In this document: one piece after another, positions 3,312-57,505 of the stretch
Layout of the letters: every line of letters begins with the position of its first letter
How positions within the stretch are numbered: the stretch's first letter is position 1
Source of the DNA: Burkholderia ambifaria
GTDB lineage: Bacteria; Pseudomonadota; Gammaproteobacteria; Burkholderiales; Burkholderiaceae
NCBI RefSeq assembly: GCF_001443045.1
Contig: NZ_LKPJ01000005.1
Location: forward strand, 152,900 to 216,899
Direction: 5' to 3'
Length of the DNA stretch: 64,000 bases
Program-made: the position numbers and the translations under genes
Notes under the pieces: generated by a model
Database searches by the model: none
The model's input: the letters and a program-made list of their open reading frames with translations, nothing else
Told to the model about the DNA's origin: nothing

Positions 3312-3445
3312 CAATGAATGCCAGTTCGCCCCATATTTCTCGTAGCTGCGCCGGTGCCCGTTGCGATGCTTCCCGGCACCTGACGCGCATCACGACGGTA
3401 TCAGCCGAGCCGCATGTCCCTGTCGATGGGGCAGCGGCTTTTTTT
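3312..3445 (+). ncRNA. Candidate small RNA in the bcp-phoH gap
   Basis: A stretch of about 134 nt that begins just after a plausible promoter and ends at an intrinsic terminator. It contains a GGTGCC/GGCACC stem around 3353-3380 and a terminal AGCCGC/GCGGCT stem. I see no credible coding frame in it. It might instead be the 3' untranslated end of bcp mRNA. I cannot match it to a known RNA family by eye. Confidence 0.4.
3408..3445 (+). terminator. Rho-independent terminator downstream of bcp
   Basis: The arms AGCCGC (3408-3413) and GCGGCT (3434-3439) close an inner CCC/GGG stem and are followed by seven T residues. It ends the bcp transcript and/or the candidate small RNA. The rest of the gap, 3446-3624, shows only the phoH leader. 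Confidence 0.8.
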
Positions 3446-49925: not shown

Positions 49926-50468
49926 CTATGCCGGATAGAACGCAGCGTGATAACGGACCTCCCCCGACGGCCGCGGCGCGGCGTCGTCGAACGCCAGCGC
50001 GAGGAAATACTCGGGTGGCGCCCCCGGGAACACGAGATCGCCGGACGGCGCGAAGCCGAAACGCGCGTAGTACGCGGGATCGCCGAGCACGACGCAGCCG
50101 CGCGCACCGAGCCGGCGCAACGCGTCGAGCCCCGTGCGCACGAGTCCCGCACCGATGCTCTGGCGCTGGCACTCGGGCCGCACCGCGAGCGGCACAAGCC
50201 CATACCACGCGTGGCTGCCGGCCGGCTCGCCGCCGATCGACACCGGCGAGAACGCGACATGGCCGATCACGCGGTCATCACGCTCCGCAACGAGCGACAC
50301 GCCGAGCGCGCCGTCCGCGCGCAGCGCGTCGACGATCTGCCGCTCGAACTGCCCGTGCTGCGGTTCGCCCTCGAACGCGGCCACGATCACGCGACCGATC
50401 GCCTCGACGTCGCTCGCGCGTTCGTCGCGCAGCGTGACGATCTCGACCGGTGCGTGCGGATCGAACAT
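49926..50468 (-). CDS. GNAT N-acetyltransferase, YhbS-like
   Basis: A 180-residue acetyltransferase with the acetyl-CoA motif LVPLAVRPECQRQSIGAGLV near residue 95 and the YhbS-type GDPAYYARFGFAP near 130. The substrate is unknown. Its ATG shares a base with the TGA of purL (TGATG), so it is probably translated from the purL message. Confidence 0.88.
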   Translation of the reverse strand: MFDPHAPVEIVTLRDERASDVEAIGRVIVAAFEGEPQHGQFERQIVDALRADGALGVSLVAERDDRVIGHVAFSPVSIGGEPAGSHAWYGLVPLAVRPECQRQSIGAGLVRTGLDALRRLGARGCVVLGDPAYYARFGFAPSGDLVFPGAPPEYFLALAFDDAAPRPSGEVRYHAAFYPA

Positions 50469-53400
50469 CAGCCGATCCAGCGGCGTGCGTTACGGAACAC
50501 GCGCATCCACGGGCTCGCTTCGTCCCACCCTTCCGGATGCCAGCTCATCGTGACCGTGCGGTGCACGCGCTCCATGTGCGGCATCAGCACCGAGAAGCGG
50601 CCGTCGGCCGTCGTGACCGACGTGATGCCGGCCGGCGACCCGTTCGGGTTGAACGGATAGCGCTCGGTCGCTTCGCCGCGGTGGTCGACGTAGCGCATCG
50701 CGACCGCGACGCGATCGATGTCGCCCTGCTGCGAGAAGTCCGCATAGCCTTCGCCGTGCGCGACCGCCACCGGAATCCGCGAGCCTTCCATCCCTGCGAA
50801 GAAGATCGACGGCGACTTCTCGACCTCGACGAACGAGAAGCGCGCCTCGAACTGCTCGGACTTGTTGCGCGTGAACTTCGGCCACGCTTCGGCACCCGGA
50901 ATCATCGACGCGAGGCTCGACAGCATCTGGCAACCGTTGCAGATGCCGAGTGCGAACGTGTCGGGGCGCGCGAAGAAGGCCGAGAACATGTCGGCAAGGT
51001 TCGCGTTGAAGCGGATCGTCTTCGCCCAGCCTTCGCCGGCACCCAGCACGTCGCCGTACGAGAAGCCGCCGCACGCCACCGCGCCCGCGAAATCGGCGAG
51101 CGTCGCACGACCGGCCAGCAGGTCGCTCATGTGCACGTCGTGCGCATCGAAGCCCGCGCGGTCGAACGCGTACGCCGTTTCAAGGTGCGAATTCACGCCC
51201 TGCTCGCGCAGGATCGCGACGCGCGGGCGAGCGCCCGTCGCAATGAACGGCGCGGCGATGTCGTCGGCCGGATCGAACGTCAGCACCGGCGAGATGCCCG
51301 GGTCGGCCGCATCGAGCAGCGCGTCGTATTCGGCATCCGCACACGCGGGGTTATCGCGCAGGCGCGCGATGCGCCAACTCACTTCACCCCATGCACGATG
51401 AAGTTCGGCGCGCGGCGCGTCGAAGACCTTCTTCGCGTCGCGGTACACCTCGATCACGTCGCGATCGTTGACCGTTCCGATCACGTGCGAGCACGCCGAC
51501 AGGCCGAACTCGCGCAGCGCGCCCAGCACCGCGTCGCGATCGGCCGCGCGCACCTGCACGACGGCGCCGAGCTCTTCCGAGAACAACGCGCGCAGCGTGC
51601 GATCCTCGCGACGGCCGCTCGTCTGCTTCGCCCAGTCCTTCGCGTCGCCGTAGTCGGACTCGTGATTCGGGTCGAGCGTCAGCATGTCGACGTTCAGCGA
51701 CACGCCCGCGTGACCCGCGAACGCCATTTCGCACACTGTCGCCCACAGGCCGCCGTCCGAGCGGTCGTGGTACGCGAGCAGCTTGTCTTGCGCGTTGAGC
51801 GACTGGATCGCGTTGAAGAAGCGCTTCAGGTCTTCCGGATCGTCGACGTCCGGCGTCGCATCACCGACCTGCTGCGTGACCTGTGCGAAGATGCTGCCGC
51901 CCATCCGGTTCTTGCCGCGACCGAGATCGATCGCGATCAGCACGCTGTCGCCTGCGTCGGCGATGCGGCGCAGTTGCGGCGTCAGGTGACGGCGCACGTC
52001 CTCGACCGGCGCGAACGCCGAGATGATCAGCGACACCGGCGACACCACTTCCTTCGCGATGCCCTGCTCGTCCCACTTGGTCTTCATCGACAGCGAATCC
52101 TTGCCGACCGGAATGCCGATCCCGAGCGCCGGGCACAGTTCCATGCCAATCGCCTTGACCGTGTCGAACAGCGCGGCGTCCTCGCCGGCCGTGCCGCATG
52201 CGGCCATCCAGTTCGCCGACAGCTTCAGCTTGTCGAGCGACGCGATCGGCGCGCTCGCGATGTTCGTGATCGCCTCGCCAACGGCCATGCGGCCCGATGC
52301 CGGCGCGTCGATCACCGCGAGCGGCGTGCGCTCGGCCATCGTCATCGCCTCGCCCTTGAAGCCCGCGTAGTCGAGCGCGGTCACCGCGCAGTCGGCCACC
52401 GGCACCTGCCACGGGCCGACCATCTGATCGCGCACCGACGTGCCGCCGACCGAACGGTCGCCGATCGTGATCAGGAACGACTTGCTGCCGACCGTCGGGT
52501 GCTTCAGCACGTCGACCGCGACTGCCGACAGCGCGACGCCCGTCACGTCGACCGGCGCACGCTCGGTGGCGACACGCGTGACGTCGCGGTGCATGCGCGG
52601 CGGCTTGCCGAGCAGCACTTCCATCGGCATATCGACCGGGTACTCCTCGACGCCCGTCGCTTCGTCGTCGACGAGCTTCAGCTCGCGTTCGTCGGTCGCG
52701 ACGCCGACCACCGCGAACGGGCAGCGCTCACGCGCGCAGATTGCCTCGAAGCGCGGCAGGTCGGCCGGCGCAATCGCCAGCACGTAGCGCTCCTGCGCTT
52801 CGTTCGACCAGATTTCGCGCGGCGACAGGCCCGATTCCTCGAGTGCGACCTTGCGCAGTTCGAAGCGCGCACCCTTGCCCGCGCCGTCGACGATTTCGGG
52901 GAACGCGTTCGACAGGCCGCCCGCGCCGACGTCATGGATGCTCAGGATCGGGTTTTCCGCGCCGAGCTGCCAGCAGCCGTTGATCACTTCCTGTGCGCGA
53001 CGCTCGATTTCCGGGTTGCCGCGCTGCACCGAATCGAAGTCGAGTTCGGCCGTGTTCGCGCCGGTCGCCATCGAGCTCGCGGCGCCGCCGCCCATCCCGA
53101 TCCGCATGCCGGGGCCGCCGATCTGGATCAGGAGCGAGCCTGCCGGCACGTCATGCTTGTGCGTATGTTGATCGGCGATGTTACCGAGGCCGCCCGCGAT
53201 CATGATCGGCTTGTGATAGCCATGCACCTTCCCGCCGACGTTCTGCTCGTACACGCGGAAGTAGCCGCCAAGGTTCGGGCGGCCGAATTCGTTGTTGAAC
53301 GCGGCGCCGCCGAGCGGGCCGTCGATCATGATCTGCAGCGGCGATGCGATGCGATCCGGACGGCCGTACGGGCCATGCGCGTCGTTCGGGTTGCGCTCGC

Positions 53401-54532
53401 CGACCGGCTGAGCCGCGTCGCGTGCGTTTTCCCACGACTGGCGTGCGTCGGGCAGATCGAGGTTCGACACGGTGAAGCCGGTGAGGCCGGCCTTCGGACG
53501 CGCGCCGCGGCCCGTCGCGCCTTCGTCGCGGATCTCGCCGCCCGCGCCGGTCGCCGCGCCCGGGAACGGCGAGATCGCCGTCGGGTGGTTGTGCGTCTCG
53601 ACCTTCATCAGCGTGTGCGTGAGCTCGGTGTGGCGGCCATAGCGTTCACCAGGCTCGCCGGCCGCACCCGCGTTGCGCGGGAACCAGCGTTCGGCTTCGG
53701 CGCCGACCATGATCGACGAGTTGTCCGAATACGCGACGATCGTCCCCTGCGGGCTCAGCTTTTCGGTGTTGCGGATCATCGCGAACAGCGACATGTCCTG
53801 CTCCTGCCCGTCGATCGTCCACTGCGCGTTGAAGATCTTGTGGCGGCAGTGCTCGCTGTTCGCCTGCGCGAACATCATCAGCTCGACGTCGGTCGGGTTG
53901 CGTTCGAGCTTGCGGAACGCGTCGACCAGATAGTCGATCTCGTCGTCGGCAAGCGCGAGACCCAGCTCGACGTTCGCGCGCTCGAGCGCGCCGCGGCCGA
54001 TGCCCAGCACGTCGACGGTTGCGAGCGGCTTGGCCGGCAGTTCGTCGAACAGGTGCTTCGCGTCGTCGCGCGCGGCGACCACGCTTTCGGTCATCCGGTC
54101 ATGCAGCGCGGCCGCGACCGCTGCGCGCGCATCGTCGGACAGCGCCTTCTTGCCGCCGAGCAGGCCCGACTTCAGCGTGACCGTGAACTCGACGCCGCGC
54201 TCGATGCGGCGTACCTGCGTGAGGCCGCAGTGCTGCGCGATATCGGTCGCCTTGCTCGCCCACGGCGAAACCGTGCCGAAGCGCGGCAGCACGACGAAGG
54301 TCTCGGCCGTCCCCTTTTCGGCCGCCGGCTCGAACGGCGCGCCGTAGTGCATCAGCGCGTCGATGCGGGCGCTGTCGTCGGCCGACAACGGCTCGACCGC
54401 ATTGACGAAGTGCAGGAACTGGCCGCGCACCGCGACGATGTTGGCGTCGATTTGCCTGAGCGTGTCGAGCAGACGGGTTTGACGGAAATCGGAGAGGGCC
54501 GAAGCGCCGGGAAAACACGAGAAGTGAGCCAT
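50468..54532 (-). CDS. purL: Phosphoribosylformylglycinamidine synthase
   Basis: A 1354-residue large-type PurL that converts FGAR to FGAM with glutamine and ATP in purine synthesis. The N-terminal domain and linker ([25 protein letters not shown]) lead to two AIRS-like halves (TEL-type motif [26 protein letters not shown] region), and the C-terminal class I glutaminase has the Cys in [13 protein letters not shown] and the His-x-Glu of SWHPEGWDE. The start is the ATG at 54532. The 51-nt stretch between it and the group II intron is its only remaining proximal leader. GNAT overlaps its end. Confidence 0.97.
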
Positions 54533-54625
54533 GGGCTGGACTGACGTCGATGAGTCGCGCGAGGTGGCGACGTGGGGCGAAAGGTAGGGTAGCCCCACCC
54601 TCCTTACGGAGAGGGGGCCCCCTAA

Positions 54626-54659
54626 GAACCGTACGTGCGAGTTTCCCCGCATACGGCTC
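54626..54659 (-). ncRNA. Group II intron domain V
   Basis: The 34-nt catalytic hairpin, with GAGCCGTATG on one arm and CGTACGGTTC on the other, has the AGC catalytic triad and a GAAA-type loop. It lies 24 nt after the maturase stop codon, followed by the domain VI stem (CCCC/GGGG around a GTAA loop). Confidence 0.88.
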
Positions 54660-54683
54660 AAGCCTACAAGAGCAAAGTCTGGC

Positions 54684-56384
54684 CTACGGCCAGACCGGCT
54701 TAGTTACTGCAATTTTACCGGCGTGCACTTGGCTGTGACAGTCCGGATGCAGCAGAACCCGGTTGGAGAGTGAGTCCGACCCGCCATACCTCTGGTACTC
54801 CAGATGGTGGTCGTGCCAGCCTGATTCTTCAGTCAGGGCGCAGCCACAATGCGCACAACAGCCGCCTTGTGACAGATACAGCGAGGCCAATTGCTTGCGG
54901 TAACGCATCGAATACAACATGCGTTCCTGCCGCAGTTCTTCGCCGTACTGCTCCATCGCAGGGTCAAAGGGATTGAAGTCCCCTTTCACCTTCTTGTGCC
55001 TTCTGATTTCCGTACCGCTGAGTTGGTACAAGGTCAGAAGACCCTTACTGCCATCGTCCCGCACTACGGGCGCGGCAAACACCCAATTTCGGTTTCCGAC
55101 CGTGTGAAAATATTTCTTCTTCACCCAGTCCTTGCCCTTGTTCGGATGCCGCCGTTTCGACCACCGCCGGAGCCTCGCAACTACCAGATGCTCCATGCGG
55201 GTGTACGCCTGCTTGGCAACTACGGGTCTGTGATACTGAGCCCATCCCCGTAGCATCGGGTTCAACAGAACGATCAAACGCTCCTGCGTCACCGCCTTAT
55301 TGCCGCTGATCGTTTCCGCCACCTTGCGATAGAACGCTTGAAAGTTCTTTTTGCTTGGCTTGATGAGTAGCTTTCCCGAGTACTTCCGGAAATTCCACCC
55401 AAGGAAATCGAAGCCATCGTTGATGTGAACGATCCGCGTTTTCTCCTCCGACAGTTGCAGCCCTCGTTTTGCGAGAAATGCCTCCATCCAAGGTCGGACC
55501 TCGCTCTCCAACACCTCGACTGAGATGCCGGTTACTACGAAGTCATCCGCGTACCGCACCACCCTCACCTTCAGCTTCTTGGCTTTCACGATCCCAAACT
55601 TCGCATCAAGATGCGCAGCAAGTTGCCGTTCCAGCCCATTCAGCGTCACATTGGCCAACGTCGGGGAAATGATGCCTCCCTGTGGCGTACCGGCCTCAGT
55701 CACCTGAAACTGACCTTCGTGAATCAGGCCAGCCTTCAACCACTTCCGGAGGATCTCCTTGTCCATCGGGACATGGTCGACCAACCAGTCGTGGTTGATG
55801 TGGTCGAAGCAGCCCTTGATGTCCGCCTCTAGGACCCATTGGACCGAAGCCTTCTGGGAAAGCGAGACGAACAACTGGGCCATGGCATCGGCCGTCGAGC
55901 GATTTTTCCTGAACCCATATGAGTTCGGGTCGCTCGTCGATTCCGACACCGGCTCCAAAGCCAGCAAATACAGGGCTTGCATCGCCCTGTCCCGCATGGT
56001 CGGTATGCCCAGAGGGCGTAACTTCCCATTGGCCTTGGGGATAAAGACTCTCCGTAAGGGCAGAGGCTTATATCCGCGCCGCTTCAACGTACCGATGGCT
56101 TCCCATCGGCTCTCAGGCGACTTCCATAGTTCGCGATCGACTCCAGCCGTTCGCGCACCCTGGTTTTGCGTAACACGTCGTACCGCATACAACTTCGCGG
56201 ACAACGTGCGGGTCAGCAGCCGTTGAAGGGCTTTCACCCTGCGCCAGTCACCTTCCCGCGTCGCCTTCGCAATTCGAATCTGCATCCCTCTCACGTTCCG
56301 TTCCACGCGGCGCCAATCAACGGCTTGCCAGCGGTCCGGCGCATGGGAAAGCGCAGACCCACCCTTACGGGCAGATACTCTCAT
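54684..56384 (-). CDS. ltrA: Group II intron reverse transcriptase/maturase with HNH endonuclease
   Basis: A 566-residue intron-encoded protein. An N-terminal RT-0/maturase region is followed by RT motifs including the active site [10 protein letters not shown] (YADD at 278-281), a domain X/maturase region, and a C-terminal HNH module (residues about 507-555) with [19 protein letters not shown] and CHSQVH. All catalytic residues look intact, so splicing and mobility should be possible. The ATG at 56384 has AGGAG 7 nt upstream; an open extension to 56477 lies in ribozyme sequence. The type resembles chloroplast-like introns. Confidence 0.9.
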
Positions 56385-57499
56385 GCTGCTCTCCTGCTCA
56401 AAGAAGTGAATCCCTGCGCGGAGAGCAACACGCCCCTTGCGGGAGCGTTTTGCTCCCACAAGGGATAAGAACAACACTGATGGCTAAGAAGCCACCAGCG
56501 ATCACCATTTCAGCTTGAGGGTTAGTCAGCCATCTTGCGACGGTAGACCAGACGGAAGTCTGCCCGCTTTCGCGTGAGGTAATGTCCCAACCTCTATCCG
56601 CGCCATTACAGCGCGGCATTCGCTTTTTCCGTCCTCCCATACCCGCACGGTCTACAGCGTTCCTTGCGGTTCGCCTGCCGAGCGTACTGCCTCGGCAACC
56701 ATACGGGCTTACCACGTTCCCGGCGTGTCACACGACTGGTTTAGGTCCTGCCTCTCCCCCGGCGGTCCGATGACGACGTAACCCGAACCTTCAACGGGTT
56801 ATCCGACCGCGTACCATTTTGGTCAGTGCCTATCATCAGCTTTTGGCACCACAATTATTACGAGGTTTATCAGCAGTTCACATACGTTGACCCTGCCAGT
56901 CAGCCTAGCTCCTCGATCCCTTGCTGCTAGGGATCTCCAAGTAGTGGTCTCACGATCACTACCTGCCCGAAACATCCGGAGGCTTCGTTGTCGGGAGAGC
57001 TTCACACCCCACCGTTACCAGTGACGCATGTCTCCCTAGGCTACTGCTGGTCGTACAACAGGTTCCCTACCTCTCCAACCGCAAGAGAGATGGAACAATG
57101 ACACACCGAGCTTTACGCTCGTCTCAAGCTTCGAAACCCCAAGCCGCGAGCGGCTCAGGGGATTGCAAACGACATCCCACCCTGTCGGCGGAGATGAAGC
57201 CGCTGACTGGGCGGAACCTGACGGTAATCAGGTCAATGCAATGCGACGTCCGGCGGAATGCAGCATGCCGGTCATCGCCAATGGCGATACCCGGCATACC
57301 CCCACCGGGTTCGCTTCGATACAAGAAAGTACAGCGCTTGTGGGCAGTTGCACTTGGGAACTCGCGCTCCTTCATGATGCACCGCGTTGTACTTTTCGCA
57401 GCCGGTCAAGGTCATACCGCACCTTCCAGACACTGCTAGTCGATGTCCCTTACGTTGGGACGACCCGGACACGAGCGTGCGTGTCGCACGAAGGCCGTA

Positions 57500-57505
57500 A
57501 TTATA
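57500..57505 (-). promoter_or_regulatory. TATAAT -10 box likely belonging to purL
   Basis: A perfect TATAAT on the minus strand, preceded by GGG. Only 10 nt separate it from the predicted intron 5' end at 57489. A -35 at 17-nt spacing is poor (GTCTGG), so an activator or an extended -10 may be used. Confidence 0.5.

Follow-up and report, generated by a model that had tools for sequence, protein, structure and literature searches.

The group II intron at the purL locus

The subject of this analysis is a group II intron that is located upstream of purL in a stretch of 64,000 nucleotides (nt) of Burkholderia ambifaria DNA (contig NZ_LKPJ01000005.1), which we refer to as "the window", and the relation of this intron and its relatives to the -10 boxes of promoters. 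All features of the locus are on the minus strand. The gene purL (50468-54532, starting at 54532) encodes phosphoribosylformylglycinamidine synthase (NCBIfam equivalog NF003672, 2125 bits), and the gap between purL and a -10 box of sequence TATAAT (57500-57505), the box of the purL promoter, is filled by a complete group IIB intron with an HNH maturase (54584-57489), which begins with GTGCGACACG, finishes with CCCTAC and lies 10 nt from the box. The 3' exon (54533-54583), as delimited by comparison with empty sites, is the purL 5' leader.

The Rfam search of the window has returned the conserved ribozyme segment RF02012 (group-II-D1D4-7; 56909-57062, 117.9 bits) and RF00029, covering domains V and VI (66.8 bits), both in excess of their gathering scores. 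The last 79 nt of the intron fold as a 34-nt domain V (54626-54659) and a domain VI (54584-54624), where a bulged A at 54590, the seventh base from the 3' end, is the likely branch point. The intron-encoded protein (54684-56384; the start codon is inferred from relatives, and GTG at 56477 is also open) has the domain order RVT_N-RVT_1-GIIM-HNH, i.e. a reverse transcriptase (RT), a maturase (X) domain and an HNH endonuclease, contains YADD and matches TIGR04416 with 379 bits. The first-pass annotation, which had placed a group II intron with an HNH-type YADD maturase and a 34-nt domain V between purL and a -10 box located 10 nt from the intron, is thus borne out on each of these points. The intron has the 5' GUGCG and the 3' AY ends of group II introns, and its insertion is precise and without duplication; in agreement with group IIB, the first base of the 3' exon is read by exon-binding site 3 (EBS3), not by delta, and EBS2 pairs with intron-binding site 2 (IBS2), this pairing comprising, across the lineage, five contiguous pairs and the third base of the box. 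The insertion 10-12 nt past -10 boxes and the existence of an EBS2 do not fit the terminator-targeting group IIC. Directly past the maturase open reading frame (ORF), at 54676-54696, a hairpin is followed by a T-rich stretch; it is terminator-like and could restrict read-through into purL, and several relatives show short inverted repeats of a similar kind.

The purL leader and gene start, used as a query against the genus, have given matches in 65 of 65 genomes, the match in genome G057 being weak and chance-like. Thirty purL loci were retrieved, including that of the window, and in the other 29 (L007-L035) the site is empty, with the exon ends 57490 and 54583 adjacent as had been predicted for the splice junction; in L011 the joint is shorter by one base. 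The insertion at purL has brought neither duplication nor deletion. In the 28 empty sites that were aligned, L011 excluded, the block formed by TATAATTaCGGCCTTC and, across the joint, CTTTCGCCCC is invariant except for one column, and the -10 box is unchanged, while the DNA farther upstream is variable. The site of a second copy in the same genome, ahead of psd, is also empty in 29 of 29 fetched congener loci, with the box TATCCT (17 loci) or TATGCT (12 loci).

Distance between the intron and the -10 box

Relatives of the intron protein have been collected from named genomes (the best 80 of 338) and from further genomes in the strain's order and family; with the window and the two other close copies of the same genome, they amount to 112 copies with a located 5' end, which were grouped by eye into 46 distinct insertion sites, and the box was found by a search at positions -15 to -18. 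Excluded from the counts are L043, whose 5' part is off the contig, L093 and L147, whose 5' end was not found by motif, L118 and L133, reserved as outside tests, and matches listed without a locus, while L124 and L188-L191 stand outside the site analysis. Distant introns, whose intron-encoded protein has an identity of at most 57%, have been counted apart (n = 20: L117, L119-L123, L125-L129, L131, L132, L135, L141-L145 and L174), with their 5' ends set by the motif GTGCGA.

The hexamer TAnnnT is present in 45 of the 46 distinct sites, ending 10 nt (38 sites), 11 nt (5) or 12 nt (2) before the intron; copy by copy, the box starts at -16 in 93, at -17 in 14 and at -18 in 3 of the 112 loci, and is missing in 2. 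Control blocks of four offsets elsewhere upstream contain TAnnnT in 0-2 of the 46 sites. Among the first 32 sites, 28 boxes start exactly at -16, for which the binomial probability at the observed base composition is 5e-57. None of the 20 distant introns has TAnnnT at -14 to -19. The rule is obeyed by all three close copies of the window's own genome, the other two being located before a cytochrome c gene and before psd; the copy at the cytochrome c gene (L002) has an apparent extra ORF of about 100 amino acids in its 5' ribozyme part, seen by eye near position 1200 of its reverse complement. The arrangement at purL, which had been regarded as special to that gene, is therefore a feature of the intron lineage and not of purL, the same geometry occurring at 45 of 46 sites.

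Bases 3-5 of the box are mostly T/C, A and A (45 sites), so that the boxes resemble the -10 consensus TAnAAT that has been derived, together with a weak -35 element, from 1733 mapped promoters of Burkholderia cenocepacia (PMC4603805; here and below, cited articles are represented by the portions of their text that were available).

Recognition of the box by the intron RNA

The 5' ribozyme parts of 110 copies have been aligned, and one copy per site (45) has been used for covariation: variable intron columns were scored against variable exon positions for Watson-Crick complementarity, in 27,435 pairs. The top 17 pairs are all contacts between EBS and IBS elements, some of them duplicated in box-anchored and splice-anchored coordinates. 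In the numbering of the window, bases 56857-56853 (TAATT) of the EBS2 loop AATAATT (56853-56859) pair with 57502-57498 (AATTA), i.e. with box bases 4-6 and the next two, and A56859 (intron position 631) pairs with T57503, box base 3, which is contacted through an EBS2 base outside the contiguous helix; the last four bases of the box and the two that follow are thus IBS2 (57498-57503). EBS1 (GAAGGT, 56792-56787) pairs with IBS1 (GCCTTC, 57490-57495), and EBS3 (G56754, intron position 736) pairs with C54583, base +1 of the 3' exon.

The variable positions of IBS2 are paired in 42-45 of 44-45 sites: Watson-Crick pairs are formed at box base 3 in 45/45, base 4 in 44/45, base 5 in 44/44, and the next two bases in 45/45 and 42/45. 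For EBS1, the pairs at -3 and -4 are Watson-Crick in 45/45 sites and those at the other IBS1 positions are Watson-Crick or G-U in 43-45 of 45, Watson-Crick pairs alone accounting for 36, 31, 38 and 41 sites at -1, -2, -5 and -6, respectively; EBS3 and +1 form a Watson-Crick pair in 44/44. At none of these contact positions has the observed Watson-Crick count been matched in any of 2000 shuffles. The intron A opposite box base 6 (T) is identical in all 45 copies, and no intron base that co-varies with box T1 or A2 has been found among the 45 sites. Position -7 is unread (4/45, the shuffle level), so that, of the seven EBS1 pairs of the first-pass annotation, six are backed by covariation and the seventh is not; its pairing of GTAAT with ATTAC has the wrong register and is replaced by the EBS2 contacts given above.

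The register of EBS2 follows the box. In the copies whose box is located 11 or 12 nt from the intron, counting from the box preserves all six EBS2 contacts (17 of 17 copies), compared with 1-2 of 6 in a fixed register; where the distance is 10 nt, 223 of 227 contacts are formed, and a shift of one base leaves 51. This bears on the idea that the introns home to specific sites of any kind and that only insertions in leaders survive, the -10 box being incidental. Insertion into coding sequence would be costly, and one non-promoter site does exist (that of L114 and L115); insertions located 20, 30 or 50 nt deeper in a leader, however, should survive equally well, whereas 38 of 46 sites share the distance of 10 nt, and an EBS2 loop that follows a displaced box strongly disfavours such survivorship, which we regard as very unlikely.

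Genes and RNA leaders downstream of the intron

Downstream of the intron, 39 of 45 sites have a match to a protein family or a tRNA in sense orientation. The genes are purL, two cytochrome c genes, psd, argF, a PtsN-like gene, a barnase-type ribonuclease, a ResA-like gene, an aminotransferase, an O-antigen-ligase-like gene, hpnD, uvrC, secA, ispB (twice), a DUF4126 gene, a zinc-ribbon gene, prfB, tRNA-Ser, a major facilitator superfamily gene, ppsA, rpiA, fimV, ribF, lptD (twice), a PCuAC gene, hisZ, pmbA, grxD, coaBC, darP, secB, tRNA-Leu, lepA, yjbE, hflK, zapD and ahcY; the matches to ResA, PtsN, the aminotransferase, the cytochrome of L099, the ispB of L060 and both lptD genes are under the curated NCBIfam score. 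No family has been found downstream at the cut-offs used in L108, L159, L160, L162 and L166, while the sixth site without a gene name (L158) has a riboswitch. At the PCuAC copper-chaperone gene (L100), the intron is located inside the first two codons, between ATGA and ACGCAC and 10 nt past TATCAT, an arrangement that is like that of a leaderless mRNA.

The ends of structured RNAs fall close to the insertion point. The models of the ZTP riboswitch (L158) and the SAH riboswitch (L173) start 2 and 5 bases, respectively, inside the 3' end of the intron match, a manganese riboswitch with a score under the gathering threshold (L161) starts 7 bases inside the intron end, and a tRNA-Leu (L140) starts 5 nt past the intron. 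Since riboswitch transcripts of B. cenocepacia begin 0-14 nt ahead of the annotated element (PMC4603805), the insertion point appears to be near the transcription start. A check of 31 sites for ORFs that span the joined flanks is uninformative, as ORFs of at least 80 amino acids often cross the junction by chance in GC-rich DNA; the flanks of L108 contain a minus-strand ORF of 642 amino acids.

The view that group II introns normally avoid essential genes misfits this lineage, as presumably essential genes such as secA, prfB and psd are located downstream. Nor is there support for the suggestion that purine synthesis is coupled to the intron: the location ahead of purL, and nothing else, speaks for a regulatory device that links purine synthesis to splicing, while the same arrangement occurs before many unrelated genes and the intron is missing at purL in all 29 fetched congener loci. 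We consider such a device extremely improbable, and purine-coupled regulation has been rejected.

Introns outside the covariation set

Two introns that were kept outside the covariation set have boxes located 9 nt before the intron, TATTAT in L118 (intron-protein identity 57%) and TATAAT in L133 (43%; the downstream gene is one that we take, from its N-terminus, to be typA-like). The EBS2 heptamer predicted from the box, with five variable and two constant positions, is found at 7/7 in both; it occurs once in the first 1.1 kb, among 11 (L118) and 7 (L133) candidates anchored by CGT. At the site that lacks the full TAnnnT, L114 and L115 hold 6 and 7 of the 7 positions of the EBS2 geometry.

In a quick tree of 86 proteins, a set of 69 rows with a support of 99 in the Shimodaira-Hasegawa-like approximate likelihood ratio test (SH-aLRT) comprises all 66 promoter rows together with L118, L114 and L115. 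L133 obeys the rule yet lies outside this set, on a very long branch, so that the introns which follow the rule may have more than one origin. Searches for introns like L133 have recovered L133 alone (in 57 and in 274 genomes), the query L118 has returned itself and introns already collected, and a search of 299 genomes of the phylum has given no new relative with an identity above 54%.

A search of plasmids has given 989 records that match part of the intron, mostly from Klebsiella and Escherichia (e.g. NZ_CP065610.1), none of which covers 80% of the intron at a single location. In 29 of the 30 plasmid rows listed, the match is the same 135-nt ribozyme stretch (intron positions 811-945, about 82% identity), located beside another intron protein. 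The ends of the Pseudomonas aeruginosa "plasmid" pPH2PALO530 (L136; CP075775.1, 1-2837) coincide exactly with the boundaries of an intron of this kind, and this record probably represents a collapsed repeat, or else a circle of intron DNA, and not a plasmid. Among the distant introns, L119 (643; 1398-1471), L131 (637; 1391-1464) and L121 (633; 1395-1468), with an intron-protein identity of 55% and from genomes G301 and G375, are located within a tRNA-Gly gene, by eye in the 3' strand of the anticodon stem, and a second, complete tRNA-Gly gene lies inside each intron; the ARAGORN anticodons of these tRNAs (tcc, ccc and ccc) apparently match, again by eye, the interrupted gene, and the intron-borne tRNA is possibly a built-in replacement.

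Promoters as the probable target of the lineage

Natural copies demonstrate, at the level of their aligned sequences, that the intron is located 10-12 nt past TAnnnT (9 nt in two distant kin) and that its EBS2, EBS1 and EBS3 pair with the site according to the code mapped above. On this basis, we propose, with a probability of about 0.8, that the intron belongs to a mobile group IIB lineage that targets sigma70 promoters at the level of DNA. By analogy with EcI5 and Ll.LtrB, whose RT recognises flanking bases of the target (PMC3898094), we infer that the intron-encoded protein recognises T1 and A2.

An intron at this position would leave the core promoter (-35 to about +4) whole upstream of it, and it should thus be transcribed by the host promoter. 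The usual spacing between a -10 box and the transcription start puts the purL start near 57493, within IBS1; the 5' exon in the RNA would then be about 2-6 nt long and without IBS2, so that the first-pass annotation, which had deduced from the same box an interrupted leader with a 5' exon of a few nt, would be right on this point. Release of the 3' exon, ligated or not, would give a near-native 5' end to the mRNA, tRNA precursor or riboswitch; as freeing the 3' exon alone would restore a near-native RNA, insertion at the start site would let the intron live without exon ligation. EBS2 pairs with bases that this promoter should not transcribe, and the near-complete match that it nonetheless keeps would therefore reflect selection, or a choice of sites, acting on DNA, i.e. 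selection for reverse splicing into DNA. The purL intron would accordingly be a tolerated resident and not a regulator of purine synthesis.

The stretch that is read by the RNA, from box base 3 to the base past the insertion (about -10 to +5), has almost the same extent as the non-template strand in the transcription bubble, which spans -11A to about +2 (PMC4496690), and the unread T1 and A2 are located at the upstream edge of the bubble. This overlap suggests, without showing it, that the ribonucleoprotein (RNP) attacks melted promoters; a retrohoming that is coupled to transcription initiation, as that of RmInt1 is to replication, is nevertheless doubtful.

Expression of purL from a promoter in the 3' part of the intron, with the upstream box no longer of consequence, is unlikely. 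Two overlapping sigma70-like matches of 9 of 12 bases, which share their -10 hexamer, are located on the purL strand at 54741-54712; two matches, however, are near chance (0.9 ± 1.0 in shuffles), and of 54 relatives examined 13 have TAAAAT in the equivalent 100 nt.

Several points weigh against promoters as the target. The 46 sites rest on a grouping by eye, and the boxes of L118 and L133 were also first spotted by eye, at 9 nt. T1, A2 and T6 are present in 45/45 sites by construction; since the box was defined by search, independent evidence comes solely from the position count and from the covariation of the remaining bases. The -35 signal is unclear, with a best match to TTGACA of 2.53 of 6 compared with 2.00-2.51 in control windows, 6 of the 45 downstream genes are without a name at the cut-offs used, and at the 3' junction of the psd copy (L003) one C differs from the joint of the empty site. 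The site of L114 and L115, with G at base 1, follows the stop codon of a gene that we take to be ompA-like; it is a non-promoter site that keeps A2, T6 and the EBS2 geometry, which means that a promoter is not strictly required, and it may reflect a shift of target type within the lineage.

The same site speaks for an RNP that needs T, A and T at fixed places together with EBS pairing, without a link to transcription; L051, where the hexamer that is read, TACTTT, and a better-looking one, TATACT, are 2 nt apart, is also in favour of such a plain motif. As TAnnnT occurs at about 0.7% of positions at the observed base composition, however, most targets of a plain motif would be expected inside genes, whereas 39 of 45 sites have a sense gene or tRNA downstream and one more has a riboswitch, although survival could add to this bias. 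We consider a plain motif possible, if clearly the less probable account.

Comparison with known group II introns

Three types of target are known for bacterial group II introns, namely homing sites, terminators and attC sites, according to a 2015 review (PMC4424553), and promoters would be a new, fourth type, located where the transcription unit begins and not, as terminators are, where it ends. Among the matches listed in searches of the open-access literature, none deals with group II introns that target promoters, subscription papers being mostly outside this search; the available portions of PMC4465626, PMC4028801 and PMC3522654 add no promoter target type.

Group IIC introns, which insert past transcription terminators or in attC sites (PMC4424553, PMC3522654), are likewise specialists for one kind of regulatory site that recurs at many locations, but at the terminator end of the transcription unit and not at the promoter end; unlike them, the present lineage should be transcribed by the host promoter and has an EBS2 that is used. 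The IIA and IIB introns, including EcI5, share with the present lineage the pairing of EBS1, EBS2 and EBS3 with the target and the reading of flanking bases by the RT, as far as the sources available describe them. The protein of EcI5, presumably with an HNH domain, is of the same RT-maturase-HNH kind. In contrast with these highly site-specific introns, as the same sources present them, the present lineage reads a generic -10 box before many genes, and its EBS2 also contacts box base 3 outside the contiguous helix. The Azotobacter groEL introns, which occupy the stop codon or its vicinity (PMC4465626, with reference to Michel et al. 2007), resemble the present lineage in residing at an essential gene and differ from it in being at a stop codon instead of a promoter, although L114 and L115 also follow a stop codon. 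RmInt1, which reverse splices into single-stranded DNA during replication (PMC3898094, PMC8914252), is a possible analogue in the use of DNA opened by a host process; it has no endonuclease (En) domain and uses replication, while the use of melted promoters by the present lineage is a hypothesis.

The rule concerns mobile introns that are often located ahead of housekeeping genes, next to the expected transcription start. Promoter targeting would explain their occurrence before secA, prfB, lptD, ispB and psd, contrary to the view that housekeeping genes are avoided, and makes testable the splicing with a 5' exon of a few nt, the expression of the downstream gene and the function of riboswitches behind the intron. 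The covariation map amounts to a base-by-base target code obtained from natural sequences alone.

Apart from the purL locus, the window contains the Burkholderia small RNA BcKCsr2 (RF02883) at 3314-3445 on the plus strand, with 137 bits.

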